Shown one piece after another: positions 6,338-20,057 of a DNA stretch of 20,152 bases. The DNA comes from a virus. Under the pieces are notes generated by a model. That model was not told the origin of the DNA. It saw only the letters and a list, made by a program, of their open reading frames with translations, and made no database searches. The stretch is taken from positions 1 through 20,152 of IMG/VR virus record IMGVR_UViG_3300027906_001643; one strand, 5' to 3'. The position numbers and the translations under genes are program-made. Each line of letters opens with the position of its first letter. The stretch's first letter is position 1.

Positions 6338-7330
6338 TTATACCACAACTTTTCCAATTGTCCATGATTTCAAACCATGTCCAGTTATTCTTGAATGAAT
6401 ATCTGTTTCTACCTCTTCAGGAACAACTAAACAATATCCAATACCAAGATTGAATACATTCTTCATTTCTTCTGGTGGGATCTCACCAGCGAGTTGAATC
6501 TTAGAAAATATTTCTGGTAAAGGCCACGAATCATAGTTAACATATGGTCGTAAACCCTTTGGAAAACATCTGGGAAGATTCTCAGGTATCCCACCACCAG
6601 TGATATTTGCCATACCAAGAATAGGAAATTCATTTAATAAATCCTTTATTAGCTCTGCATATATTATAGTAGGATTAAGTAATTCTGGCATTTCTTTAAG
6701 TATTATCACCTGTCTCCATAACATATCTCTAATCAAACTAAACCCATTACTATGAATTCCACTACTTTCTATACCAATAATAATATCATTCTCTCGTATT
6801 AAACTACCATCAATAATCTCATTCTGCTCCACAATACCAGTACAAAATCCTGCAAGATCTTTAATAGAATCTACCATTCCTGCTCTTCTTGGATGCTCTG
6901 CAGTTTCACCACCTAGTAAAGAACATCCAGATTGTTTACATCCTTCTGCTATACCATTAACCAATTCTGTTACTAACTCTCCATATAGTTTTATATCTGA
7001 CGTACAAATATAATCCAAGAAATATAATGGTTTTGCACCACAGGTAATTACATCATTCACACACATAGCAACAAGATCAATACCTATCCCACGCATTACG
7101 GATGGATTACCAGTTGCATTCAATTCAGCAACATGTGTTTTAGTTCCTACACCATCAGTACCCGAAACCAATATAGGATTCTCATACCCAGAAGGAATTT
7201 TAGTCATACCATTGAAACCACCAAATCCACCCATGACCTCAGGCCGATGAGTGGATTTAACGGTGTCTTTAATTTGATCTACAAAAGATCTTCCAGCTTC
7301 AATGTCAACTCCAGAAGTTTTATAATCCAT
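6338..7330 (-). CDS. purM: Phosphoribosylformylglycinamidine cyclo-ligase (AIR synthetase)
   Basis: PurM converts FGAM to AIR using ATP, the fifth step of purine synthesis. The 330-residue sequence aligns along its length with bacterial PurM (about 345). It has GVDIEAG near the start, RPEVMGGFGGFNG at 29-41, the ATP-binding loop SGTDGVGTK at 56-64, and GIDLVAMCVNDV at 83-94. Further on come the FLDY segment, SGCSLLGGETAEHP, and the late NITGGGIPENLPR. All are family hallmarks, so the enzyme looks intact. It is separated from hsp20 by only 29 bases, which hold a promoter-like sequence. With purS and purC in this window it supports phage-driven purine synthesis; purM is a known cyanophage auxiliary gene. 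Confidence 0.96.
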   Translation of the reverse strand: MDYKTSGVDIEAGRSFVDQIKDTVKSTHRPEVMGGFGGFNGMTKIPSGYENPILVSGTDGVGTKTHVAELNATGNPSVMRGIGIDLVAMCVNDVITCGAKPLYFLDYICTSDIKLYGELVTELVNGIAEGCKQSGCSLLGGETAEHPRRAGMVDSIKDLAGFCTGIVEQNEIIDGSLIRENDIIIGIESSGIHSNGFSLIRDMLWRQVIILKEMPELLNPTIIYAELIKDLLNEFPILGMANITGGGIPENLPRCFPKGLRPYVNYDSWPLPEIFSKIQLAGEIPPEEMKNVFNLGIGYCLVVPEEVETDIHSRITGHGLKSWTIGKVVV

Positions 7331-7353
7331 TATATAAACATAACAATAAGAAT

Positions 7354-7362
7354 ATTATATCA
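7354..7362 (-). promoter_or_regulatory. Candidate extended -10 promoter upstream of purM
   Basis: On the minus strand the bases read TGATATAAT, a perfect extended -10 (TGnTATAAT) in the short gap between the hsp20 stop and the purM ATG. The -35 position at 17-base spacing (7377-7382, ATGCAA) is poor, but extended -10 promoters tolerate this. It would start transcription about 17 bases before the purM ATG. The region is AT-rich, so a chance match is possible. Confidence 0.4.
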
Positions 7363-7794
7363 CAAATATTCTTTTCTTGCATGATGTTCTGGAACTATCT
7401 TGTTTAACTCCACAGATAGGAGTCCATCTTCAAACTTGACCGATCCAACCTTTGTATCATCGGTGACCGTCCAAATACGTTGGAAGGAACGTTGGGCCAG
7501 TCCTTTATGGAGAAATTCTCCAACATCTTCTGATTCTTCTTTTTTGCCCTCGACATATAGTTTTCCAAACTCCGTATAGACTTTGAGTTCATCTTCCTTG
7601 AACCCTGCCAATGCGATTTCCAATTTTGACTCATGATTATTTAATTGTATCAAATTATATGGTGGATAGTTGGATTGTGGGAAATCAGAATTGAAAAAGT
7701 TATTAAAATAATCATCCAATCCTATGCTGTTCTTATTAATCTTCTCCATTAAGTCTGGAAGATTAGCAGCGTGATAGCGTTGTAGTGCGTTCAT
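7360..7794 (-). CDS. hsp20: Small heat shock protein, Hsp20/alpha-crystallin family
   Basis: This 144-residue protein is an ATP-independent holdase chaperone. The alpha-crystallin domain runs from about residue 46 to 130. Recognisable parts are KLEIALAGFKEDELKVYTE, the LYVEGKKEE strand, GLAQRSFQRIWTVTDD and the closing KFEDGLLSVELNKIVPE. The G-L-L-S-V-E-L strand is the most conserved part of the family. The N-terminal arm (NALQRYHAANLPDLMEK...FNNFF) is variable, as usual. AAAGGAGAA sits just before the ATG, a strong ribosome-binding site. Hsp20 genes are near-universal in T4-like cyanophages and may aid virion assembly. The 78-base leader contains a hairpin and a late-promoter-like motif. Confidence 0.92.
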   Translation of the reverse strand: MNALQRYHAANLPDLMEKINKNSIGLDDYFNNFFNSDFPQSNYPPYNLIQLNNHESKLEIALAGFKEDELKVYTEFGKLYVEGKKEESEDVGEFLHKGLAQRSFQRIWTVTDDTKVGSVKFEDGLLSVELNKIVPEHHARKEYL

Positions 7795-7823
7795 AGTTCT
7801 CCTTTAAAAGCGAGTGTAAATTG

Positions 7824-7842
7824 TGTACCCTTGTGGCGTACA
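7824..7842 (-). promoter_or_regulatory. Hairpin in hsp20 leader
   Basis: An inverted repeat TGTAC/GTACA plus CC/GG closes a 4-base loop, with one bulged base (7837), giving a seven-pair stem. It lies about 30 bases before the hsp20 ATG. Just upstream on the minus strand is GTTAAATAG (7846-7854), loosely similar to a T4-type late promoter. No U-run follows the stem, so it is not a classic terminator. It could protect or regulate the hsp20 leader, or be an operator. Confidence 0.35.
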
Positions 7843-7872
7843 TTACTATTTAACCATAAAGACTTAATAACG

Positions 7873-8580
7873 TCAGTGTTGGAAACCCTCTAATATGGTT
7901 CTGGTTTCCCTCCAATCTTTTACATTATACACTGTTCCCATCATATTATCTAAAATTCCCATTGATAAGGTGTGGTCATTACCACCTTCATCTATCTTAT
8001 CACCAAAGAAATGGATTTCATCACCCTTAGAGAAATCTCTCAGTATTTGACTCTTATCTCTACCATGTGGTGCAATGTCAAGACCTGTTTGACCACCTAC
8101 AGTAGCATGTAAATCAGGAAACCTTTCATTAAATCTTCTAGCAATCATTTCTCTCTCATGCTCATCCTTATCCCATTGAATATATGTTTCTCTCTCCTCC
8201 CAATTAGCACCCCTACCTAATACACTAAAGTTTATACAACCTGGTCTTTCTTCTATATGAGGATCAGTTCTTATTCTAAACTGACTATAATCTAATTCAT
8301 CTTGCAGAAATTGTCTTACTTCATCAGATGGTTTCCATGTATCTCTATAAACATTCTTATCTCTCTCATACACATCACAACCAGAACAATTATATACTCT
8401 TTTAGATCTATAACATATATCCAATCCTAATTGTTCTACAGTCTTCTCTCTATCACTTCCAGTAACAAGATAAACATCATTACTACAACAAAATTTTAAA
8501 AAGAAAGCCCAAAATGAATGCTCTATTTGTTTCCTACTAGGAGTTAGAGTTCCATCAACATCAAATATAAATTTATTCAT
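7873..8580 (-). CDS. Alpha-phosphomannomutase-like HAD-family enzyme
   Basis: This 235-residue protein matches the eukaryotic-type phosphomannomutase (PMM1/PMM2) group of the HAD superfamily. The N-terminus FIFDVDGTLTPSRKQI carries the catalytic aspartates D7 and D9. TGSDREKTVEQLG is the equivalent of motif II. RPGCINFSVLGRGANWEER is the cap-domain substrate region. VGGQTGLDIAPHGRDKSQIL supplies the motif III Lys, and FFGDKIDEGGNDH supplies the metal-binding acidic residues. These enzymes interconvert mannose-6-P and mannose-1-P, and several also accept glucose-1-P/glucose-6-P. It could feed GDP-mannose synthesis, or process the product of the nearby glycogen phosphorylase. The start overlaps the purS stop (ATGA). 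Confidence 0.87.
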   Translation of the reverse strand: MNKFIFDVDGTLTPSRKQIEHSFWAFFLKFCCSNDVYLVTGSDREKTVEQLGLDICYRSKRVYNCSGCDVYERDKNVYRDTWKPSDEVRQFLQDELDYSQFRIRTDPHIEERPGCINFSVLGRGANWEERETYIQWDKDEHEREMIARRFNERFPDLHATVGGQTGLDIAPHGRDKSQILRDFSKGDEIHFFGDKIDEGGNDHTLSMGILDNMMGTVYNVKDWRETRTILEGFQH

Positions 8581-8900
8581 GTATCAAACAAATGGTGTTT
8601 AGATGTACCAGCATTATCATTTGTAATTTTTCCTATTCCAGTTTCTTCAGTCTCATGGAATTCAAAATCCCAATCTTCTATCACAGTATTTGCTAATAGT
8701 AAATCACTAAGTTTATACAACTCTTTCTCTGCTGTTTCATGATCTTTTGCTTCAAACCAATAATCAATATGCTTACCAAGTCGTAACAAATTTGATTTAA
8801 GATTAGGAGCAACCCTATGAGTATTATTCATTACAGCATTACCAGCAGCATCTGATACAGACGCTCTTAATTTTACAGCAATAGTTGCTTTAAACTTCAT
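8577..8900 (-). CDS. purS: FGAM synthase PurS subunit
   Basis: PurS is the small structural subunit of the three-part phosphoribosylformylglycinamidine synthase (PurL, PurQ, PurS), which makes FGAM from FGAR. The match rests on KATIAVKLRASVSDAAGNAV near the start, the central LGKHIDYWFE strand, and LLANTVIEDWDFEF at 68-81, where LLANxVIEDY/W is the family signature. At 107 residues it is longer than typical PurS (about 80-85). The extra tail after residue 87 is polar with no known match. No purL or purQ lies in this window, so they must be elsewhere in the phage or supplied by the host. The ATG overlaps the stop of a 50-residue membrane protein. Confidence 0.85.
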   Translation of the reverse strand: MKFKATIAVKLRASVSDAAGNAVMNNTHRVAPNLKSNLLRLGKHIDYWFEAKDHETAEKELYKLSDLLLANTVIEDWDFEFHETEETGIGKITNDNAGTSKHHLFDT

Positions 8901-9049
8901 TTATTAACTACCTCAACCTGTACAGGGTTGCTTAGATAGTCAGCGATTCTATGATATGCAATTGCTCCAAAAACTTGTGGAGCAATAAAAGCAATCATTG
9001 CTACTATCCAAAAAATGTAATAATTATTTTCCTTGATTTGTGTTCTCAT
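8897..9049 (-). CDS. Small single-pass membrane protein, 50 aa
   Basis: A 50-residue product begins MRTQIKENNYYIFWIVAMIA, with one hydrophobic helix at about residues 10-31 and a polar C-terminus. The ATG overlaps the glgP stop (TAATG at 9047-9051), and its TGA overlaps the purS ATG (ATGA), so it is coupled on both sides. A charged N-terminus before the helix suggests a membrane anchor. The function is unknown. Confidence 0.65.
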   Translation of the reverse strand: MRTQIKENNYYIFWIVAMIAFIAPQVFGAIAYHRIADYLSNPVQVEVVNK

Positions 9050-11460
9050 TAGATACTCCATATTTTAGAACAATAATCTCTGATAGATCTATCAGAAGAA
9101 AAGAAACCAGATCGTGCTGTGTTAATAATAGACATTCTATTCCATCTTTCCCTATTTGTCCATGCCCTACTAACACGATCTTGTGCATCCAAATAATCAG
9201 AAAAATCTGCAAAAACACAGAAAGGATCATGGTATAAAAGATTATTAATTAATGGTTCAAACATTTCTTTATCACCATGACTAAAATGACCACCCTTAAT
9301 TAAGTTTATTACTTCCCACAATTCTGAACTCATATGTTGTTTAGGATCATATCCATGTTCCCACAAATCTTCTATACCCTTTTCATCATGTCCGAATAGG
9401 AAGAAGTTATCTTCACCAACTAAATCACGTATCTCTACGTTTGCACCATCAAGTGTACCAATAGTTAAAGCACCATTCATTTGGAACTTCATATTACCTG
9501 TACCTGATGCTTCCTTACCAGCAGTAGAAATTTGTTCAGATAAATCAGCAGCAGGATATACAAGTTCTCCTAACTTAACACTATAGTTTGGTAAGAATAC
9601 TACATGTAACTTACCATCCATATCAGGATCATTATTAACAACCTCTGCTATATGACAAATAAACTGAATAATCAATTTAGCCATATAATATCCAGGTGCT
9701 GCTTTACCACCAAAGATTACAGTTCTAGGAACTATATCTGCACCATTCTTAATGCGAAGATATTGATTAACAATCCAAAGAGCAAGTAAATGTTGTCTCT
9801 TATACTCATGTATTCTCTTAACTTGCACATCAAAAATACTAGAAGGATCTACTGCTATACCAAGATTATTAAAAATATAAGTTGCTAAATTATGCTTTCC
9901 TACAATCTTTGCTTCTCCAAATTTATCCAATAGTTCTGGATCATTTAAACCTGTCTCCAATGTATTAAGAGCATCCATGTTAGTAATCCAATCTAAACCA
10001 ACATAATCATCAAGAACTTCAGTAAGTCCTGAATTACAAGATGCTAACCATCTTCTTGGTGTTACACCATTGGTAACATTAGTAAATTTATGTGGCCAAA
10101 GATCATAGAACTCAGGCATTAATTTAGTTTTAACTAATTCAGAATGTAATGCAGCAACACCATTAACATGATGAGATCCTACAGTTGCAAGATGAGCCAT
10201 ACGAACTGCCTTATTACCATGTTCATCTATAATAGACATCTTCTCTAACTTACTATCATCACCAGGATAATGCAGACGTACTACTTGTAAGAATCTTCTA
10301 TTAATCTCATAGATAATTTCCATGTGTCTTGGTAAAAGATTCTTGAATAATTTCAAGTCCCACTTTTCAAGTGCTTCTGGTAATAATGTATGATTTGTAT
10401 ATGCAACAGACTTAGTTGTAATCTCCCATGCCTGATCCCACTCTATATGTCTTTCATCTACAAGCAATCTCATCAACTCTGCAACTGCAACGGCAGGATG
10501 AGTATCATTTAATTGTACTTGCCAATAATGTGGAAAATCTTCTATCTTATATCCACGCTTATCAAGACTTCTAAACATATCTTGAAGAGAAGCACTAACA
10601 AAGAAGAACTGTTGTTTTAATCTTAATTCCTTACCCTGATCAGTTCCATCATTAGGATAAAGAACCTTAGAGATAGTTTCTGATGTAACACTCTGTTCTA
10701 CTGATCCCATATAGTCACCTATATTGAATGCATAGAAGTCAAATGTTTCAGTAGCATCTGCTCTCCATAATCTCAATCTATTACAACTATTAACTTTATA
10801 ACCTAACTGTAGTACATCATAAGGAACAGCAATAACCTGTTCTTCAGGAACCCACCTGACTCTATAATTTCCTCTATCTGATACATAATTTTCAACTCTA
10901 CCACCAAAACCAACAGTAACAGATTCATCAGGACGACAAAGTTCCCATGGCCATTCTCCATGTAACCAATTATCAGTAACTTCTATCTGCTGATTATCCC
11001 TTATTTGCTGCTTGAATATACCATACTTATATCTTATACCATAACCAGTAGCAGGTACTTCTAGTGTAGCAAGAGACTCCATATAACATGCAGCAAGACG
11101 ACCAAGACCACCATTACCCAATCCAGGTTCTTCTGCTACATCTAATATTTGATTTAGAGTATATCCGTATGCTTCTAATGCTTCCTTTGCTTCATCCCTT
11201 ATACCTAAACTAATAAGATTAGTATTAAGTTGAGGACCAATTAAAAATTCTGCAGAAAGATATGCTACCTCTTTATTGGTAGGTGGTTTCATATCTAACC
11301 AATAAGTCATCATCTGATCTCTAACAGCATAACTTAATGCCATATAAAAATCATGTAGTGATGCTTTGTCTGGACGTTTTCCTAATGTGTAGAAAAGACG
11401 TTCAGTAATACCATTGTATAAATTATTATTTTTCGTCAACTTTTTTCTTCTTGGCTCCAA
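9049..11460 (-). CDS. glgP: Glycogen/starch phosphorylase
   Basis: This enzyme cleaves alpha-1,4-glucan with phosphate, releasing glucose-1-phosphate; pyridoxal phosphate is the cofactor. The 803-residue chain covers the whole family (bacterial GlgP about 815). AYLSAEFLIGPQLNTNL is at about 66-82, PGLGNGGLGRLAACYMESLA at about 112-131, QLNDTHPA in the middle, and TNVTNGVTPRRWL later. QVKRIHEYKRQ, the KAAPGYYMAK phosphate site and the PLP box EASGTGNMKFQMNGALTIGT with K658 follow. All active-site blocks are intact. No ATG start exists: the first usable codons are TTG at 11460 or 11439, both inside regA. Codon 1 at 11460 keeps homology upstream of the first conserved helix; 11439 gives a shorter overlap. 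It is an unusual cargo for a phage. Confidence 0.95.
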   Translation of the reverse strand: MEPRRKKLTKNNNLYNGITERLFYTLGKRPDKASLHDFYMALSYAVRDQMMTYWLDMKPPTNKEVAYLSAEFLIGPQLNTNLISLGIRDEAKEALEAYGYTLNQILDVAEEPGLGNGGLGRLAACYMESLATLEVPATGYGIRYKYGIFKQQIRDNQQIEVTDNWLHGEWPWELCRPDESVTVGFGGRVENYVSDRGNYRVRWVPEEQVIAVPYDVLQLGYKVNSCNRLRLWRADATETFDFYAFNIGDYMGSVEQSVTSETISKVLYPNDGTDQGKELRLKQQFFFVSASLQDMFRSLDKRGYKIEDFPHYWQVQLNDTHPAVAVAELMRLLVDERHIEWDQAWEITTKSVAYTNHTLLPEALEKWDLKLFKNLLPRHMEIIYEINRRFLQVVRLHYPGDDSKLEKMSIIDEHGNKAVRMAHLATVGSHHVNGVAALHSELVKTKLMPEFYDLWPHKFTNVTNGVTPRRWLASCNSGLTEVLDDYVGLDWITNMDALNTLETGLNDPELLDKFGEAKIVGKHNLATYIFNNLGIAVDPSSIFDVQVKRIHEYKRQHLLALWIVNQYLRIKNGADIVPRTVIFGGKAAPGYYMAKLIIQFICHIAEVVNNDPDMDGKLHVVFLPNYSVKLGELVYPAADLSEQISTAGKEASGTGNMKFQMNGALTIGTLDGANVEIRDLVGEDNFFLFGHDEKGIEDLWEHGYDPKQHMSSELWEVINLIKGGHFSHGDKEMFEPLINNLLYHDPFCVFADFSDYLDAQDRVSRAWTNRERWNRMSIINTARSGFFSSDRSIRDYCSKIWSI

Positions 11461-11863
11461 TATTATACTTGGTTTCTAGAATCCAGTCACCTTTATCCTT
11501 ATATGCTAACACTTTGATTTGATTCAAAGGAGCAATATCTTGAATTCTGGTGGAGTCTACTATACCTACTAGTCCCCAATCAACAAGAAGTTGAGCAATA
11601 CGATTACGACGTTGTACATCATTAACAGTAAGATTTGCTTTCTTACCATCTAATGCAAATAATTCTTTAAAGTGAACTACAAAATATCTTCCTTGCTTAT
11701 GCAATATATGACAAGATTGATAGATCTTCTTTTCCTTTCTTGACGCTACTCCGATACGAGTCAAAGTCTCACGTACTTTCAAAAAATCATCAGGTTCAGT
11801 AAGAGTAACTTCCACCATCTGATCAGGTGACCACTTCACCTCAGGCTCTTGCACCACGCTCAT
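11426..11863 (-). CDS. regA: RegA translational repressor
   Basis: RegA binds mRNA around initiation codons of early genes and blocks translation, including its own in T4. The 145-residue product (T4 about 122) has MVEVTLTEPDDFLKVRETLT near the start. RIGVASRKEKKIYQSCHILH and GRYFVVHFKELFALDGK follow. DVQRRNRIAQLLVDWGLV, the best-conserved block of phage RegA, comes next. The tail is basic, with KKKK. The start has GGAGGAAGACA before ATG, a strong ribosome-binding site, and overlaps the gp62 stop by ATGA, as in T4's 44-62-regA order. The 3' end carries the start of glgP. Confidence 0.9.
   Translation of the reverse strand: MSVVQEPEVKWSPDQMVEVTLTEPDDFLKVRETLTRIGVASRKEKKIYQSCHILHKQGRYFVVHFKELFALDGKKANLTVNDVQRRNRIAQLLVDWGLVGIVDSTRIQDIAPLNQIKVLAYKDKGDWILETKYNIGAKKKKVDEK
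11462..11490 (-). promoter_or_regulatory. Possible sigma-70-like promoter inside regA, ahead of glgP
   Basis: The minus strand has GTGACT, 17 bases, then TATAAT. The -10 is perfect and the -35 matches TTGACA at four of six positions. Transcription would begin near 11455, upstream of the TTG at 11439 but downstream of the TTG at 11460. It could give glgP its own transcript. The element is within regA coding sequence, so chance similarity is a real possibility. Confidence 0.25.
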
Positions 11864-12243
11864 TGTCTTCCTCCAGTTTCAAATTTCGATTTTATAAAAT
11901 TAAGTTGTTCTTTAGTTAGGATTTTCAAAGCCTGTTGTGCCTTCTCATTACTATACCCATAGTAACGTTTTACATAATCAAGATCTTTGATTGTATCTTT
12001 ACGGAGCCAAGGAGAAAATCTCTTCTTAGGTCTCAAGATATTTATAAAAAAGTCGTATTGCATTTTCTTTGGAAGAAAATGATATGTGTTCATTTCATTA
12101 GCAAACAATACTGCATCAAGATGTCCAGAGAAAATCTTATTAACAATATATGGAGAATAGTCTTTTTCTATAGAAGGATCTTCATCAATAAGATTATTCT
12201 TTGTTTTATTAATGGAATTTAACCAGTCTTTTAATTCAGGCAT
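11860..12243 (-). CDS. gp62: Clamp loader small subunit, T4 gp62 type
   Basis: The small subunit of the gp44/gp62 complex helps load gp45 on DNA. The 127-residue product starts MPELKDWLNSINKTKNNLID and has HFLPKKMQYDFFINILRPKK, then WLRKDTIKDLDYVKRYYGYS. These are features of cyanophage gp62 proteins, which are shorter than T4 gp62 (about 187). Position directly before regA supports the call. It is separated from its partner gp44 by about 4.4 kb of accessory genes, whereas the two are adjacent in T4. A TATAAATA octamer (12039-12046, minus strand) lies inside the gene and is probably incidental. Confidence 0.8.
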   Translation of the reverse strand: MPELKDWLNSINKTKNNLIDEDPSIEKDYSPYIVNKIFSGHLDAVLFANEMNTYHFLPKKMQYDFFINILRPKKRFSPWLRKDTIKDLDYVKRYYGYSNEKAQQALKILTKEQLNFIKSKFETGGRQ

Positions 12244-12607
12244 TTTCTTTAAGATAATTAAGTGCGTTCATAACTCCATCAATATCATCACCCAAATTAC
12301 TCAACCCCCTATTACAACTATCACATATCCATCCCCTAAACTTACCAGTTTTATGGTCATGATCAAAAACTATTCTTGAGTTTTTTTGTTCTATAATATT
12401 TTCTATTCTACCACACATATCACAATGAGTTGATTTGGGAACTGTACATCTTTTCTTTGCATCACGAGTAACTTTATCAATCATTCTTTCACATTGCCTA
12501 CAATGTTGATAACGAAGTTTGCCATATGAACTACCTTCACCTCTTGTACGAAAAGACTCAATAGGTTTTTTTTGATGACACTTAGTACATTTTTTTAATT
12601 CAATCAT
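12236..12607 (-). CDS. Endonuclease VII-like HNH nuclease
   Basis: The start is taken at the ATG at 12605-12607, giving 123 residues beginning [19 protein letters not shown]. An upstream in-frame TTG at 12667 would add 20 residues without homology. The N-terminal zinc ribbon has C7/C10 and C36/C39. A second Cys set, C62/C65 and C95/C98, flanks VFDHDHKTGKFRGWICDSCN, whose DHDH and following Asn match the beta-beta-alpha metal nuclease core of T4 endonuclease VII (gp49). It could resolve branched DNA, or be a free-standing homing-type nuclease; the size and the place beside gp62 leave both open. The start overlaps the upstream membrane protein's end, and the stop overlaps gp62. Confidence 0.82.
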   Translation of the reverse strand: MIELKKCTKCHQKKPIESFRTRGEGSSYGKLRYQHCRQCERMIDKVTRDAKKRCTVPKSTHCDMCGRIENIIEQKNSRIVFDHDHKTGKFRGWICDSCNRGLSNLGDDIDGVMNALNYLKENA

Positions 12608-12803
12608 TATTAATAGTATAGGAGGGTGGTATGTGATGATCATTCCAGTGTCGAATGTTTCCTGCAATGATAAAGCAGTTTGTAATCACAAGTTGTAAGA
12701 AGATAAAAGATCTTATAACACAGATAATATCATCATACTTTTTGGTAGTTTCATCTTGGAATGAACCAAGTGCATACTTCCATATTCTCCATAGTTTAGT
12801 CAT
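12600..12803 (-). CDS. Small membrane protein, 67 aa, cyanophage-conserved
   Basis: The protein begins [20 protein letters not shown], then a charged stretch, then a hydrophobic helix at about residues 27-48 ([20 protein letters not shown]), ending with a His/Pro-rich tail. Proteins starting with this Trp-rich pattern recur in T4-like cyanophages in my memory, with no known function. Its ATG overlaps the apt stop by eight bases, and its stop overlaps the endonuclease VII-like start. Confidence 0.72.
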
Positions 12804-13308
12804 ATTTAATCAATGATGTAATAGGAATATTGGGAATATTATCTCTACCATTCAATCCTAACAGTTCTATCACAAAAGCACAACCTACAAGTCTTCCACC
12901 TGCTTTATCAATTAATTGAGCAGCAGCATTTACTGTACCACCAGTTGCTAGTAAATCATCAACCAATAATATCTTTTGATCCTTTACAATATCAGATTGT
13001 ATTTCTAACCTATCTTGACCATACTCTAAACTATAATCAACACCGATTACATCACCAGGCAATTTACCTTTCTTTCTTATAGGAATAAATCCCATTCTTT
13101 GTCTTGTTGCTAGAGCAGTTCCAATAATGAATCCTCTAGATTCAATACCAACAATATAATCAGGTATTAATCTATCAGAAAAATTTCCTAACGTAGTTAA
13201 CATTGAAGTCATTGCTGAAGGACTTCTCAATATAGGAAACATATCTCTAAAAAGTATCCCTTTTTTAGGAAAATCAGGATAACTAGAAACTAGTTCTTCA
13301 ATCATCAT
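12796..13308 (-). CDS. apt: Adenine phosphoribosyltransferase
   Basis: Apt salvages adenine with PRPP to give AMP and pyrophosphate. The 170-residue product matches bacterial Apt (about 170-183): [19 protein letters not shown] near the start, [17 protein letters not shown] at 51-67, then [27 protein letters not shown] follows, and the PRPP-binding loop [13 protein letters not shown] is at 113-125. The key acidic pair DD and the ATGGT are intact. Two Met codons are adjacent at the start (13306-13308, 13303-13305). It sits beside purC and draws on the same PRPP pool as de novo synthesis. Phage-encoded apt is uncommon. Confidence 0.93.
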
Positions 13309-13846
13309 AAAATTTATAAGCTAAAGACACTCTCAATCCACTATAAAGAGAATGAGGTGCATCTGCATAGTGTAACATATTTGCTGGAAATAATACAGCC
13401 CTATTTGGTTTATATGTTACTATTTCAGAAATTTCATCTTCATCTTGATTATAATCATATGTCCAATCATACCATACCTTATCTCCTTCTTTATATGAAG
13501 GTCCTAACTTATTAATAAACATCAAATGACCTTGCCAATTAATCTTCCATTCTGGATTTACAAAATATAAAAATGTAGTAGTACCATCATCAGTATGCGG
13601 ATCACCATATTGTCCTGCTGTCTGACCATTAGCATATATCCTTAGACATTTGCTATTAATATTTAAATTGTCTTTAATTATTTCTAGAAGATACTCACTA
13701 AAAAATTTATCTTTTTCAAGTCCATCCATATGCCAAAATGGATGATCAGGAATACCACCATTCAAACACCATCCTGATCCTCTAAGTATATTCCAAATTT
13801 TATTATGAAGTTCTTCTGAAAAGAAATTATCAAAAACTTGAATCAT
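13298..13846 (-). CDS. 2-oxoglutarate/Fe(II)-dependent oxygenase (prolyl 4-hydroxylase-like)
   Basis: This 182-residue protein shows the double-stranded beta-helix oxygenase signature. H84 and D86 sit in [15 protein letters not shown], and the distal His is most likely H159 in [16 protein letters not shown]172 in [11 protein letters not shown] binds the 2-oxoglutarate carboxylate. The WQGHLMFI strand (about 104-111) matches the GGEL/F strand of P4H-like enzymes. Such enzymes are common in cyanophages; substrates are mostly unknown, with protein residues or nucleic acid as candidates. It sits between purC and apt, coupled to purC by ATGA, so it is transcribed with purine genes, but no link in function is implied. 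Confidence 0.88.
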
Positions 13847-14541
13847 ATAATTTTTTTAATTTCACTCAAAATAATATTATATGCTTCTACAATATCTCCC
13901 TCACCTTTTCTAAAAAGATCTTTATCGAAACTTTCTTTTGTTCCTTTCTTCCAGAGTCGCATTCCGTCAGGTGATAGTTCATCAGCAAGGAGTAAATTTT
14001 GTTCAGAATCATAACCAAACTCCAATTTAAAATCAACAAGTGTAAGATCTATCTTATTAAAGATATCCTGTAGTATAGCATTAATTTCTCTAGCAGCAAA
14101 CTGCAATGGTCTTATAGACTCACCATAACCCATCAAATTAATACGATCTTCTGTAAGTAGAGGATCATCTTTAGCATCATCCTTCAAATAAAACTCAACC
14201 AAAGGCCAATTAATAATCCTACCTTCTTCTAAGGTAGTCTGCCTAACTATAGATCCAGCAGCAACATTTCTTACTACAACTTCTATTGGAATAATATCAA
14301 CCTTCTTACAGGACATAATCCTTTCAGGAATTGAATTAATATAATGAGTTCTAATTCCTACTTTCTCTAACTCCTCAAATAAAATTGTAGAAATTTCCAT
14401 GCAGACTTTTCCTTTTCCTTGAGGAAAATCTATCTTCTTACCATTACCAGCAGTAACTCTATCCTCATATTGTATGAGAACTTTATCAGGTTCAGATGTA
14501 GTGAATACAGTCTTTACCTTCCCCTTTGTAATTTGAGTCAT
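13843..14541 (-). CDS. purC: SAICAR synthetase
   Basis: PurC joins aspartate to CAIR with ATP, giving SAICAR. The 232-residue product fits bacterial PurC (about 237). GKVKTVFTT near the start is the family's KGKxKxxY-like glycine loop. The first SAICAR signature is IPIEVVVRNVAAGS at 84-97. LVDFKLEFG, the second signature, is at 169-176. LADELSPDGMRLW, the substrate and metal site, is at 185-197. The sequence is intact. The gene is coupled to both neighbours by ATGA. PurC extends the route beyond PurM: CAIR, its substrate, is made by PurE/PurK, which are not seen here and presumably come from the host. Confidence 0.96.
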   Translation of the reverse strand: MTQITKGKVKTVFTTSEPDKVLIQYEDRVTAGNGKKIDFPQGKGKVCMEISTILFEELEKVGIRTHYINSIPERIMSCKKVDIIPIEVVVRNVAAGSIVRQTTLEEGRIINWPLVEFYLKDDAKDDPLLTEDRINLMGYGESIRPLQFAAREINAILQDIFNKIDLTLVDFKLEFGYDSEQNLLLADELSPDGMRLWKKGTKESFDKDLFRKGEGDIVEAYNIILSEIKKII

Positions 14542-14786
14542 TTTTTATATTTTTTTATACTCTCTTCCCATTGCTTCATACTACTTTGACATTGACCTTC
14601 ATTTTCTTTAGGATCAAGTTTATTATACCCCTTTACTTTCTTCCACTCATTATAGAGTGCTTGCAGTATCCATGACTGCGATAAGCTTTTAGGTCCGTTT
14701 TCAAGTAGTTCAAGGTACTTTTTGTTACTGGTGTAACTTTTGTACTCTTCTCTCCAGTTGGAGTCATCATAAAGTTTAGTTGTCAT
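14538..14786 (-). CDS. Hypothetical protein, 82 aa
   Basis: The ATG at 14784-14786 is chosen over a GTG 33 bases upstream because GGGAAGA lies about ten to fourteen bases before it and the overlap with the preceding gene is then 11 bases. The protein begins MTTKLYDDSNWREEYKSYTS and is polar, Lys/Glu-rich and probably helical, ending ESIKKYKK. No domain is recognised. It is coupled to purC by ATGA. Confidence 0.65.
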   Translation of the reverse strand: MTTKLYDDSNWREEYKSYTSNKKYLELLENGPKSLSQSWILQALYNEWKKVKGYNKLDPKENEGQCQSSMKQWEESIKKYKK

Positions 14787-15288
14787 AAGTGTAGGTCTTC
14801 CCTTTGATTTGAGTTTCACCTTCAGGATTTTTTCCTTGTGGTTTAAATTTTCCTAGTTTAATATTCTTTTTGGGTAATCCACCCTTTCTAGTTCTTTTAA
14901 GAGTTGCTTTTCCTCCTGGTTTAGATTGTGTAATGACAGAATCCTGTCCATACTTTTTACCTAATTTCTTAACTTCTTTCTTAAACTTCTTCTTACCCAT
15001 CTTACCAGAAGTCACAACATGACTTCTTTCCTTTACTCTAGTTTCTTTACCAGTTTTATCATCCTTCTCAGTGTATTTACCAGTAACCTTAGTAGCACCT
15101 TTACCAAACTTACTACGAATATCTTTATCTAAACTCTTTGCTCTTGCCTTATTTTCTTTATTAGATTTATCACCACGACTTCCTGAGAGAACTGCCACTC
15201 CTCCCTTATCGTGCTTTGATTTAAGACGGCTTAAACTACTCTCCTCTAACTGAGAGCATTCTAACATAAAATTCTGAAATGTCTTCAT
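14776..15288 (-). CDS. Lys-rich basic protein with capsid-targeting-like N-terminus; candidate internal head protein
   Basis: The ATG at 15286-15288 is used; a TTG 12 bases upstream would add MSQA before the conserved-looking start. The 170-residue product begins MKTFQNFMLECSQLEE, close to the T4 internal-protein capsid-targeting sequence MKTYQEFIAE, with a possible prohead-protease cleavage after E10. The rest is strongly basic: I count 39 Lys and 8 Arg against 18 acidic residues. It is low in hydrophobics and rich in GK-type repeats, which suits DNA binding or an unfolded, ejected protein. A late-type promoter motif (CATAAATA, 15312-15319) lies just upstream, unlike the early genes around it. 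The function is inferred; it could also be a ribosomal-like nucleic-acid-binding protein of other use. Confidence 0.6.
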   Translation of the reverse strand: MKTFQNFMLECSQLEESSLSRLKSKHDKGGVAVLSGSRGDKSNKENKARAKSLDKDIRSKFGKGATKVTGKYTEKDDKTGKETRVKERSHVVTSGKMGKKKFKKEVKKLGKKYGQDSVITQSKPGGKATLKRTRKGGLPKKNIKLGKFKPQGKNPEGETQIKGKTYTYDN

Positions 15289-15311
15289 CGCTTGTGACAA
15301 TATTTTAATTG

Positions 15312-15319
15312 TATTTATG
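15312..15319 (-). promoter_or_regulatory. Candidate T4-type late promoter
   Basis: The minus strand reads CATAAATA, seven of eight matches to the T4 late consensus TATAAATA, 24 bases before the ATG of the basic protein gene. Position and spacing fit a late start a few bases downstream, leaving a short leader. It overlaps the dam stop codon, so it may give the next gene independent late expression. Confidence 0.45.
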
Positions 15320-16214
15320 AAGCGAGTCCTTCCTGCTTCAATTTGTCGTAATTATAACATCCATCAAAACTAAATTTAATCTTTGGATTAAGACCATAAT
15401 TAAAGAGTACTAGTTCTTTTCTATCTTGTTGTTCTTTCATATACTCACCAACAGATCTCATAGTATATGTAAGATTAAATTCTGCTGTATTCCAATTGTT
15501 AAAACGATCTCTTATAAGTTGACTAGAGTTATATGAAATTAACTGATGCCCTGCACAATTATCACATTCTTTAGCAAATTTATCATGATCAAATTTCTTA
15601 TGCAATGATCCTTTCTTACCATAAAGATTAGAACCAATCTCATAAGGAGGATCTGAGTATATAAAAACATCTCTACTATCTGTTAATAGATCTGTATAAT
15701 CACTATTAGTAAACTTCCAATTCTCTACTAAATCTGAATATTCTGGTAGTTTTTCAATTCCCCTCATAGAGAAATTAGATACAGATGCTTGACTAGAAAA
15801 TGATGAACTCTCAGTTAATCCACTAAAAGAACATTTATTAACAATATAAAAAGCAACAGCTCTTTCTAAATTATCCTTATCTTCATTATTAACAATATCT
15901 TTAGCCTCTAAGAATAAACATCTTGCAGAATCTTCATTAGGATGAGCGATCTTAAGATTGTTTAATTCTTTCTTCAATTCTGAACCATCATGTTGTAACT
16001 CAGTCCAAAAGTTAATAAGTGGTTCATATAAATCATTGACCCAAATTTTTAAATGAGGGTACTTTTTAGTAATATGTAAAGCAACACTACCACCACCCAA
16101 AAAGGGTTCACGAAATTCTGTATACCTGTTTAAATCAGGTAAGAATTGATCCATCTTAGAACAAGCACGAGACTTGCCTCCAGGATATCTAAGGGGTGTT
16201 TTGAGTGCCTTCAT
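15315..16214 (-). CDS. dam: DNA adenine N6-methyltransferase, Dam/D12 class
   Basis: This enzyme transfers methyl from S-adenosylmethionine to adenine N6. The 299-residue chain has LRYPGGKSR at 8-16, EPFLGGGSVAL (the SAM-binding FxGxG type) at 36-46, WVNDLYEPLINFW at 58-70, and the catalytic DPPY at 188-191. SYNSSQLIRDRF lies later. This order is that of class D12 (alpha) methylases such as T4 Dam. GATC is the likely but unproven target. No partner restriction enzyme is seen, so it is an orphan methylase that could protect phage DNA from host restriction. The start overlaps a small membrane protein by 26 bases. Confidence 0.92.
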   Translation of the reverse strand: MKALKTPLRYPGGKSRACSKMDQFLPDLNRYTEFREPFLGGGSVALHITKKYPHLKIWVNDLYEPLINFWTELQHDGSELKKELNNLKIAHPNEDSARCLFLEAKDIVNNEDKDNLERAVAFYIVNKCSFSGLTESSSFSSQASVSNFSMRGIEKLPEYSDLVENWKFTNSDYTDLLTDSRDVFIYSDPPYEIGSNLYGKKGSLHKKFDHDKFAKECDNCAGHQLISYNSSQLIRDRFNNWNTAEFNLTYTMRSVGEYMKEQQDRKELVLFNYGLNPKIKFSFDGCYNYDKLKQEGLAS

Positions 16215-16389
16215 CGTTGATTAATCTATAAGTTCCTTCTTTATGAGAATGTGCTATACCTAATTCATGCATCTTTGAATGTTCATCAATAGGATCTCTT
16301 AAATCTTTCTTTCCTGGCCCTACTGTTAACCATAGTCCATAACCCATAATAAAAAATAGTAATCCTACTATAATGAATACAACAATCAT
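16189..16389 (-). CDS. Small N-terminal-anchor membrane protein, 66 aa
   Basis: The ATG at 16387-16389 is chosen because AAGGAGG sits seven bases upstream; an in-frame ATG at 16407 would include this signal in the gene. The product begins MIVVFIIVGLLFFIMGYGLW, a single hydrophobic helix over about residues 1-22. A polar tail with GPGKKDLRDPIDEHSKMHEL follows, which resembles a protein conserved in T4-like cyanophages. The ATG overlaps the preceding TGA (TGATG). Confidence 0.75.
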   Translation of the reverse strand: MIVVFIIVGLLFFIMGYGLWLTVGPGKKDLRDPIDEHSKMHELGIAHSHKEGTYRLINDEGTQNTP

Positions 16390-16652
16390 CAGAATGCCTC
16401 CTTCCATATAATAATATCATTACTATTATCTAATATCTTACCAGATCTATATGGTGATATCATTGGATGATCGGGTTCCATTAACTCTAACGTAACAGCA
16501 TCTAAAATACGATTAAAAGATCTCGACATCTGACGATATCCAGATCCAACATACATTTGTCCTGCAAAGACAGATACAGTTGCTGCACCCCAAAAAATAT
16601 AATACCACCTAGATTTAACTTGATGTCTTTGCTTTTTTGTTAATTTAGTCAT
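16389..16652 (-). CDS. Small membrane protein, 87 aa, cyanophage-conserved
   Basis: The start is the ATG at 16650-16652; the longer frame would need a GTG inside gp44. The protein begins MTKLTKKQRHQVKSRWYYIF, a basic stretch before one hydrophobic helix at about residues 22-40 (YYIFWGAATVSVFAGQMYV). The soluble tail ends DIIIWKEAF. The positive N-terminus predicts N-in topology. It is seen repeatedly next to gp44 in related phages as I recall; the function is unknown. Confidence 0.72.
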   Translation of the reverse strand: MTKLTKKQRHQVKSRWYYIFWGAATVSVFAGQMYVGSGYRQMSRSFNRILDAVTLELMEPDHPMISPYRSGKILDNSNDIIIWKEAF

Positions 16653-16659
16653 TGTTCTT

Positions 16660-17601
16660 TTATTTGAATTCACATTCTACCATAATCTCAGTGAGACACG
16701 CAAGTAGATTTATCTCTTGGTCAGCAACGAAGGCGGTTTGATATTGGTACTTCGCAATAACAAGAACGGCAGCAGGAATAGAATTAGAAACCAAGGATTC
16801 GTAAAGACTATCGTAGATACGACGAAATAGTACAGTAGTATCATTGTCCAAGTTATCGACACACCATTTACGTACTTCCGAAAAGTTCTTCGCTTTGAGG
16901 TTTTTAATGAGATCATTTACTGAAACATCCGTGAATGTAGCTAGTATACCACTATCTATAATTCCTGCAACAGAATATCTTTGACATTCATTTAAAACTC
17001 TTCTCCAGTCTGGAAAATGTTTATTAACTAATTCTGCAAGAACTTTCTTATCAAACTTAATCTTCTCTTGTTCTAAAATATTTACAAGTCTATTAAAAAA
17101 TTCTACCGCAATCGCCTGTTTATACTTTTTCTGAATACCAAACTCAACCACAACGCATCTCGAATGGAGGGGTTCAATGATTTTATTTTTGTAATTGCAA
17201 GTGAAAATGAATCTGCAGTTGTTGGAGAACTCCTCAATACTCGCTCTAAGAAGGAGTTGTACGTCGGAAGTGGTATTGTCTGCTTCGTCAATGATGATGA
17301 CTTTATGTTTCGACTCGCTTGTAAGAGAGACTGTAGATGCGAAGTTCTTTGCGTTGTTCCGAACAGTGTCGAGAAACCTGCCTTCATCCGATCCATTAAT
17401 GACATAATAATCTACCCCCAATTCCTTACAGAGTGCCTTTGCTACAGTAGTCTTACCAATACCTGGAGGACCAGAAAGTAACATATTAGGTATTTCACCC
17501 TTATTTAGAAATTCACTAAAGGTTTTCTTAATATTCTCTGGGAGAATACAATCTTCAATTTTTTGGGGTCTGTATTTTTCAACCCATATAAAGTCACTCA
17601 T
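16660..17601 (-). CDS. gp44: Clamp loader large subunit, T4 gp44 type (AAA+ ATPase)
   Basis: This subunit uses ATP to open and load the gp45 clamp. The 313-residue chain (T4 319) opens WVEKYRPQKIEDCILPE, typical of RFC/gp44. Walker A GPPGIGKTT is at 44-52, Walker B IIIDEAD at 102-108, and the SRC arginine finger at 147-149. The C-terminal collar region ends ECEFK. The start overlaps the stop of a 24-residue microprotein (ATGA). The middle of the gene uses more G/C-ending codons (positions 16680-16920 and 17150-17420) than its flanks, a patchy pattern that may reflect recombination. Confidence 0.95.
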   Translation of the reverse strand: MSDFIWVEKYRPQKIEDCILPENIKKTFSEFLNKGEIPNMLLSGPPGIGKTTVAKALCKELGVDYYVINGSDEGRFLDTVRNNAKNFASTVSLTSESKHKVIIIDEADNTTSDVQLLLRASIEEFSNNCRFIFTCNYKNKIIEPLHSRCVVVEFGIQKKYKQAIAVEFFNRLVNILEQEKIKFDKKVLAELVNKHFPDWRRVLNECQRYSVAGIIDSGILATFTDVSVNDLIKNLKAKNFSEVRKWCVDNLDNDTTVLFRRIYDSLYESLVSNSIPAAVLVIAKYQYQTAFVADQEINLLACLTEIMVECEFK

Positions 17602-18767: not shown

Positions 18768-19441
18768 TAAGGCATGTTGTGGTCAATATTACCACTGGTT
18801 ATTGATGGTTTGCCGTAGTGCTCATCAAAATGTAATAGTAGCATAGCATAATGTATCACTTTCATCAAGTCCTTCTTATTTCTTCCATCCTTACTCCCAT
18901 AGCGACTACCATACTTAAGTATGTTTGCTTGACAGAAATCGGATGCAAGATCTCTAGAAGCCATGAGATCTATTGTTTGAACATTACGAAACTCATGCTT
19001 AGTTCCTGTATAATGTCCATTATAAGTACTTGATACGTAATCCTCAATATCACTCATAATTTCTTTTTCGTGATACTTGTTCCTACTATCAGTCATTTTT
19101 GCAAGTTCCTCCTTTGCTGCTTGTTGTGTCCACCCATCATTGTATGGCGAATTTGCATGTATATTTAGATTTAACTCATCATAACCCATACCACCTTCTA
19201 CATGATGTGCAATTTGATCATCATTGTCTGATAAAGTATTGAATGAACCTGGATTGTACATATAATCTGGTGGATATTCTGTAATACCAGTTGCATCATC
19301 AGTCATTGGTTTTCCTTGTTTTAGTTGCTCCTCTTTCCATGCTTTAAGATTCGCTTCATCATCTGGTCCATACATAATCGGATAATCCTCATCAAGTGTT
19401 CCGTTTAATACTGAGTATGCTAAACTCCAAGCATTAACCAT
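18767..19441 (-). CDS. DUF3310-like protein
   Basis: The 224-residue protein has a C-terminal block, about residues 150-205: EFRNVQTIDLMASRDLASDF, then CQANILKYGSRYGSKDGRNK and KKDLMKVIHYAMLLLHFDEH. This matches the phage DUF3310 layout (a helix with ID, then FCxxNxxKYxxRxGxK, then DLxKxxxYxxLL). The longer N-terminal part, about 145 residues, is acidic and Asn/Asp/Tyr-rich and shows no known domain. DUF3310 has been described as nucleotide-kinase-like in some annotations, but its activity is not established to my knowledge. It overlaps pebS by eight bases at the start. Confidence 0.6.
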   Translation of the reverse strand: MVNAWSLAYSVLNGTLDEDYPIMYGPDDEANLKAWKEEQLKQGKPMTDDATGITEYPPDYMYNPGSFNTLSDNDDQIAHHVEGGMGYDELNLNIHANSPYNDGWTQQAAKEELAKMTDSRNKYHEKEIMSDIEDYVSSTYNGHYTGTKHEFRNVQTIDLMASRDLASDFCQANILKYGSRYGSKDGRNKKDLMKVIHYAMLLLHFDEHYGKPSITSGNIDHNMP

Positions 19442-20057
19442 ATTGGAATAAAAAATCGTTTACTAAACTATCTGCTTTTTCTTTCCCAAACTTACCTTTA
19501 AGGTATCCACTTACTGGATCAAGTCTGGTCATGTAAGCATCAAAGTCTTTATACTCGCTAGTATCAGTACCAGTCGGTTTTGCCAATTCTAGCATATCTT
19601 TGAACTTAGTCAAGTATTGTTTAAATGTAGATAGATGAACATTAACTTCTTCCATCTTACAATACCTAACAAAAATATTTTCAGAAAAGTGATTTCCTTT
19701 TTCAAAAAATCTATAATCTTTTTCTGCTTTTGGTAAGTCATCAAAAGATAGTAAATAATTTTCCACAGGATGTTGAAAATCAAATACCATAATAACTCTC
19801 TTTTCATTGAAAGCCATTAAATCTATACCAAAAGAAGGAAGATTAGATCCAGTTTTGGGATAGAGAATATTATTGTAGATACATGAAGTATCACTCCATA
19901 TCTCCACTTCTCTAGATTTAATAAGATACTTATTAGTATAAGTCTTTGCTGTAAGGTGGGTTCCCTTACTTTTCCAATTTGCCCAGACACTACCTACCCC
20001 ATTATGGAGTGAGATAGTGTCGTGTAGGACATTCTTGTATTCTTCCCAAAGGTTCAT
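19434..20057 (-). CDS. pebS: Ferredoxin-dependent bilin reductase, phycoerythrobilin synthase PebS
   Basis: PebS reduces biliverdin IX-alpha to phycoerythrobilin in two ferredoxin-dependent steps. The 207-residue product has ILYPKTGSNLPSFGIDLMAF at 64-83, VIMVFDFQHP at 88-97, FFEKGNHFSENIFVRYC at 117-133, and RLDPVSGYLKGKFG at 178-191. From memory of the P-SSM2 enzyme, D79 and D180 correspond to its catalytic D105 and D206 with a constant offset of 26, so the core has no gap. The N-terminus is 26 residues shorter. PcyX/PcyA are alternatives in the same family, but the similarity to PebS is strongest. AGGAGG precedes the ATG closely. It marks a phage of cyanobacteria. Confidence 0.9.
   Translation of the reverse strand: MNLWEEYKNVLHDTISLHNGVGSVWANWKSKGTHLTAKTYTNKYLIKSREVEIWSDTSCIYNNILYPKTGSNLPSFGIDLMAFNEKRVIMVFDFQHPVENYLLSFDDLPKAEKDYRFFEKGNHFSENIFVRYCKMEEVNVHLSTFKQYLTKFKDMLELAKPTGTDTSEYKDFDAYMTRLDPVSGYLKGKFGKEKADSLVNDFLFQYG

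Follow-up and report, generated by a model that had tools for sequence, protein, structure and literature searches.

A glycogen phosphorylase gene conserved in T4-like cyanophages and its probable link between host glycogen and the pentose phosphate pathway

The IMG/VR virus record IMGVR_UViG_3300027906_001643, an uncultured T4-like cyanophage contig analyzed over its whole length of 20,152 bases (hereafter the window) and carrying all of its genes on one strand, encodes a glycogen/alpha-glucan phosphorylase of the GT35 family, glgP (9049..11460, minus strand), which by its sequence is an intact enzyme gene under strong purifying selection in phages. The explanation that we favor, with a probability of roughly 0.6, is that T4-like cyanophages have in glgP an auxiliary metabolic gene, still intact, that was picked up once, long ago, was later shifted among a few cargo slots, and would feed glycogen into the pentose phosphate pathway; its substrate, direction of reaction, flux, and benefit to the phage are those that we infer. 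This interpretation is supported by a full-length family match, the catalytic residues, a low ratio of nonsynonymous to synonymous substitutions (dN/dS), the grouping of the phage copies in a single clade, their occurrence at multiple genome sites, and the gene set of the cultured cyanophage S-SCSM2R.

The predicted GlgP protein matched TIGR02093 over its full length (1146 bits against a cut-off of 553) and PF00343 along its whole length (1047 bits). The residues H357, H551, K554, and R555, together with the pyridoxal phosphate lysine K658 in the motif GNMKF, were invariant in 80/80 phage copies, and comparison of the window gene with its nearest copy gave a dN of 0.047 and a dS of 0.58, hence a dN/dS of about 0.08. 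The phage clade, the low dN/dS, and the invariant catalytic residues indicate that selection has kept this gene intact, making it very likely, as judged from the protein sequence, that a phage enzyme for opening host glycogen is real. The listed start codon (TTG at 11460) overlaps regA; alignments with relatives begin no earlier than about residue 4-14, and the start is more likely a later in-frame TTG near 11439.

Our scan of viral contigs found 204 stretches encoding close relatives of glgP, and 80 close copies were studied. Classified copies were located after regA (57, window included), after nrdB (15), or elsewhere (7), the last group including sites near psbA and the S-SCSM2R site between peroxiredoxin and a glycosyltransferase, and the most common site, between regA and hsp20, is also that of the window. 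In the 15 contigs of the second group (L017, L023, L033, L039-L043, and others) glgP directly follows nrdA-nrdB, a position that ties glycogen use to ribonucleotide reduction and that the window does not show; the neighbors that we call nrdA, nrdB, and psbA are presumed to be such from reading their translated sequences. A tree built from 100 sequences separated the 46 phage glgP copies, without exception, from the 54 cellular genes by a branch with a support of 100, and on the tree of its neighbors the presence of glgP changes nine times. Recent capture from a host was discarded, copies from cyanobacteria (on plasmids of Nostoc and Acaryochloris, 54-56%) and from proteobacteria (54-57%) being equally distant in a cellular sample that contained no Prochlorococcus or marine Synechococcus copy. 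Also discarded was a 79% "cellular" match in an Actinomycetota bin (L184, PBPX01000015.1), which proved to be a contaminant cyanophage contig with gp62, regA, glgP, hsp20, gp43, and uvsX. Enteric or fecal "phage" records with glgP were at most 46% identical and mostly unannotated.

The metabolic role suggested for glgP is best illustrated by S-SCSM2R (PQ898602; host Synechococcus WH7803), a T4-like cyanophage whose carbohydrate phosphorylase belongs to the same GlgP clade, is 72% identical to that of the window, and occurs together with zwf, gnd, talC, and CP12 (glgP at 207442; TalC, Zwf, and Gnd at 182852-187079). Its glgP differs in location, lying beside petF/peroxiredoxin and glycosyltransferase/Kds genes, outside the regA-hsp20 slot. 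Additionally, one contig (G007, L041) has the order nrdB-glgP-PMM, PMM being a gene of the phosphomannomutase family, with talC about 6 kb further on, and another (L068) carries glgP, talC, and CP12. In the proposed mechanism, phage GlgP would phosphorolyse host glycogen to glucose-1-phosphate, which a phosphoglucomutase would convert to glucose-6-phosphate; this mutase would be that of the host, with the PMM-family enzyme of the phage as a possible second one in some phages. Glucose-6-phosphate would enter the oxidative pentose phosphate pathway, which phage zwf, gnd, talC, and CP12 are known to favor, and ribonucleotide reduction and the synthesis of nucleotides would thereby receive NADPH and ribose-5-phosphate. 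The neighboring genes purS, purM, purC, and apt would likewise help to provide nucleotides for phage DNA. This route from glycogen through glucose-1-phosphate and glucose-6-phosphate to the pentose phosphate pathway is better supported than a route from glycogen to purines.

Such a role would fit a model, attributed to Thompson et al. in 2011, in which cyanophage genes reportedly steer the carbon of the host toward the pentose phosphate pathway, thereby gaining NADPH and nucleotides. The cyanophage genes talC, zwf, gnd, and CP12 have been listed previously (PMC10452541, PMC4053976), and in the text of PMC4053976 glgP was not found, glgA (synthesis) being named instead. The glgP gene of the window resembles this set in that host carbon would be diverted to the same pathway, but it would act one stage earlier, at the glycogen store. 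Prochlorococcus stores glycogen and uses it at night for NADPH (PMC3430701). Moreover, a review reports that the production of 12 host proteins continues in cells infected by S-SM1, glycogen phosphorylase, Gnd, TalC, and CP12 among them (PMC10452541, citing its reference 124).

Several observations weigh against this interpretation. In 16 long but incomplete glgP contigs, gnd and zwf were not found and talC was found in only four; S-SCSM2R is the one complete genome with glgP considered here, and some 20 kb separate its glgP from zwf/gnd; and the window, as a fragment of 20 kb, is too short to show the pentose phosphate pathway genes of its own phage. Furthermore, glgP of S-SCSM2R abuts a GT24-like glycosyltransferase gene and KdsA/KdsB, with UGDH in the same region, so that glucose-1-phosphate could feed sugar nucleotides. 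Under this alternative, GlgP would supply nucleotide sugars (UDP-glucose, UDP-glucuronate, mannose derivatives) for decorating the virion, the host envelope, or DNA, and PMM would serve GDP-mannose or related sugars, as might be expected from the nucleotide-sugar epimerases near PMM in many phages, including S-SSM7. Nevertheless, in the window and most relatives glgP lies among replication, nucleotide, or nrdAB genes without sugar-nucleotide genes, and a phage could draw on host glucose-1-phosphate for these sugars without opening glycogen, which leads us to regard this alternative as unlikely.

The enzyme that might perform the second step is encoded at 7873..8580 (minus strand) and is a HAD-IIB protein of the alpha-PMM family (PF03332, 89.8 bits against a cut-off of 22.4), a putative phosphomannomutase/alpha-phosphoglucomutase. 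Its AlphaFold2 model had a pLDDT of 94.1, and the best 24 PDB fold matches were all of the PMM family, including the atypical alpha-phosphoglucomutase (alpha-PGM) 4BND. The HAD motifs (DxDGT, S/T, K, and GD..ND) and the phosphate-binding cap arginines (D6, D8, S41, K175, G192, D193, N200, D201, R111, R122, and R129) were invariant in 28 sequences, and the eukaryotic motif GGQISFD is replaced in phages by GGQTGxD or GGETGxD. The modeled fold thus points to a likely mutase acting on glucose- or mannose-phosphates. Conversion of glucose-1-phosphate to glucose-6-phosphate by the phage enzyme is possible by analogy, because its family contains a bona fide bacterial alpha-PGM (4BND, Lactococcus). 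This Lactococcus lactis enzyme, PgmH, shares the PMM-type HAD fold and interconverts the two phosphates, but its identity to the phage enzyme over the fold match is 20%, whereas eukaryotic PMMs are closer, at about 30%. A title cited in PMC9537760 sets the alpha-PGM of Lactococcus apart, as unrelated, from the phosphohexomutases usually met, and a Plasmodium PMM has PGM activity too (PMC8808168).

The initial annotation had listed glgP, the PMM/PGM-like HAD gene, purS, purM, purC, and apt between replication genes at 6338-14541 and had joined them in a possible single route from glycogen to purines. All six are open reading frames (ORFs) of the minus strand at or close to the positions given there, each confirmed by curated models, and are interspersed with gp45, gp44, gp62, regA, gp43, uvsX, and gp41. 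Besides the two genes described above, these are purM (6338..7330; TIGR00878, 342.6 bits against 236; phrog_1207), purS (8577..8900; PF02700 and TIGR00302 above cut-off, at the same place in P-SSM2), purC (13843..14541; TIGR00081, 203 against 190; PF01259, 231.9; phrog_1112), and the adenine phosphoribosyltransferase gene apt (12796..13308; TIGR01090, 189.5 against 185.9), all on the minus strand. The apt gene, for adenine salvage, had 22 close IMG/VR relatives, nearly all adjoining gp62/regA, whereas the deposited cyanophage genomes gave no match.

The joined route stood up in part: glgP is intact, conserved, and selected, and the step from glucose-1-phosphate to glucose-6-phosphate is possible, but the distribution of PMM does not support a single programme. 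Among relatives selected by regA, the gap between regA and hsp20 shrinks in many cases to about 117-129 bases and is otherwise filled with varied cargo, which identifies it as a cargo slot or hotspot. In complete slots of this kind, PMM was not enriched beside glgP (4/46 with glgP and 6/58 without, p = 1.0). Of the purine genes, purS (6/46 against 1/58, p = 0.042) and purM (6/33 against 1/42, p = 0.039) were only weakly commoner with glgP, with p-values that are uncorrected, also for the tree, and in sets that differ in phage make-up; a tree-aware pair test (regA plus hsp20 tree) showed no association, with four usable pairs and little power. After nrdB, PMM stood alone in 8/68 cases with enough sequence, and where glgP was present there PMM occurred in 4/15, L041/L042 and L027/L030 being near-copies. 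In addition, 19 of the 20 long PMM-bearing contigs were without glgP, and most glgP phages have neither PMM nor pur genes beside it.

A dedicated programme, in which glgP, PMM/PGM, purS, purM, purC, and apt had been assembled and kept as one route, would account for the six genes lying on one strand within 8 kb, for the somewhat higher frequency of purS and purM beside glgP, and for the presence of an alpha-PGM in the PMM family. It would also account for PMM following glgP with overlapping stop and start codons in several unrelated copies at two genome sites. Gene overlap is a usual form of packing in phages. Overlaps between adjoining glgP and PMM genes (TAATG, TGATG, ATGA) are frequent among unrelated copies, and the adjacency of the two genes, with at least four linkage changes on the PMM tree, was set aside as proof of a joint pathway, being cancelled by the background rate of PMM in glgP-free slots. 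Against the programme also stand the pur genes retained in glgP-free regions, as in P-SSM2, and the S-SCSM2R genome, which has glgP and no PMM, purM, purC, or apt. Given the distribution of PMM, we consider such a programme quite improbable.

Purine genes (purS, purM, purC, and purN) have long been known as accessory genes of cyanophages, in which they are widespread, and they rise with depth and in low-light or oxygen-deficient waters (PMC9983427, PMC3037559). Those of the window belong to the same families as the reported purS, purM, and purC; these two sources draw no link to glgP, and apt is absent from the gene list shown in PMC9983427. Because PMM is not enriched, purS and purM are only weakly commoner, and purine genes are widespread in cyanophages, the purine part is better read as parallel cargo: purS, purM, purC, and apt would be independent genes of the replication region, sharing a purpose without forming one cassette.

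The assignment of the window to the T4-like cyanophages rests on its gp43/uvsX/gp41/gp44/gp45/gp62/regA module with cyanophage relatives, the closest phages being Prochlorococcus phages P-SSM2 and P-SSM5; identity in gp43 was 81-82% to these two and to single-cell marine viruses of the AG-345 series. The gene order in P-SSM2 is gp44, dam, gp62, regA, purS, hsp20, ferredoxin/purM, gp43, uvsX, gp41, and further on purH. The window shares with P-SSM2 and P-SSM5 the backbone order gp44..gp62-regA-purS-hsp20-purM..gp43-uvsX-gp41, but it has an extra glgP between regA and purS, an extra PMM between purS and hsp20, and purC-2OG-apt-EndoVII placed ahead of gp62, whereas in P-SSM2 and P-SSM5 the stretch is without glgP, PMM, apt, and purC, and purH lies downstream of gp41. 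The slot is bordered upstream by regA (11426..11863; PF01818, phrog_242) and downstream by hsp20 (7360..7794; PF00011, phrog_432), and the clamp-loader subunit gp62 lies at 11860..12243 (PF16790, phrog_225), all on the minus strand. This arrangement is not an assembly artefact, because independent contigs repeat parts of it: 2OG-apt-gp62-regA-glgP in L163 (97-100% identity), regA-glgP-purS in L002 and L003 (73-99%), and regA-purS-PMM-hsp20 in L165.

The marked variability of the regA-hsp20 slot and the nine changes in glgP presence might suggest that the slot gathers foreign genes and that glgP is neutral or transient cargo without regular benefit. Such an explanation was already disfavored and appears highly improbable to us, since it would have to reconcile a dN/dS of about 0.08 and invariant catalytic residues with one phage clade persisting for long at several sites.

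Other features of the region include a putative membrane peptide of about 50 amino acids (8897..9049, minus strand), whose ORF overlaps its neighbors on both sides, at the stop codon of glgP (TAATG) and at the start codon of purS (ATGA), and is a paralogue of that at 16389-16673; a similar small ORF follows glgP in L002, L003, L009, and L056. Just upstream of gp62-regA-glgP, contig L021 has a 917-amino acid ORF (cluster c34) that we take, from reading its sequence, to resemble glycine dehydrogenase, and ORFs of this family are also present in L022, L047, and L048. Elsewhere in the window, all on the minus strand, positions 19434-20057 encode a ferredoxin-dependent bilin reductase (PF05996), which is one of the pigment genes of cyanophages, and the product of 14776-15300, adjoining a Dam-type methylase (15315-16214), scored 64.8 bits against PF23780, the S-adenosylmethionine lyase family, which includes phage enzymes that deplete S-adenosylmethionine against restriction-type defences. 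No Rfam match or tRNA was found in the window, and promoter-like sites were fewer than in shuffled sequence.

Phage glgP belongs to a known class, the carbon-metabolism auxiliary genes of cyanophages. The view of the initial annotation that the opening of glycogen by a phage enzyme was not established holds for the function, but the gene itself had been noted before: according to the review, phage genomes or viral fragments contain homologs of eight host proteins still made in infection, and glycogen phosphorylase is one of the eight (PMC10452541), and an alpha-glucan phosphorylase (GT35) is among the mangrove virome genes listed in PMC6460857. In the literature covered, from which subscription papers were largely missing, we found no paper describing the glgP of phages as a lineage that is conserved in cyanophages and has defined sites. 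Going further, we tentatively propose, at somewhat less than even odds, that T4-like cyanophages own an old glycogen phosphorylase lineage free of host regulation, in several lineages joined by overlapping genes to a PMM-type alpha-phosphoglucomutase, which would drain the glycogen of the host through the pentose phosphate pathway and so meet the cost of ribonucleotide reduction and of nucleotides, chiefly in dim light or darkness. To our knowledge, the carbon source for cyanophage-driven pentose phosphate flux in short light has so far lacked a phage gene. The infection of Synechococcus WH7803 by S-SCSM2R, with glgP, zwf, gnd, talC, and CP12 in one phage, makes the idea of glycogen as this source testable in culture. 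Overall, with a glycogen phosphorylase that is widespread and under selection in phages, stored glycogen becomes the candidate carbon source for cyanophages when light is short.

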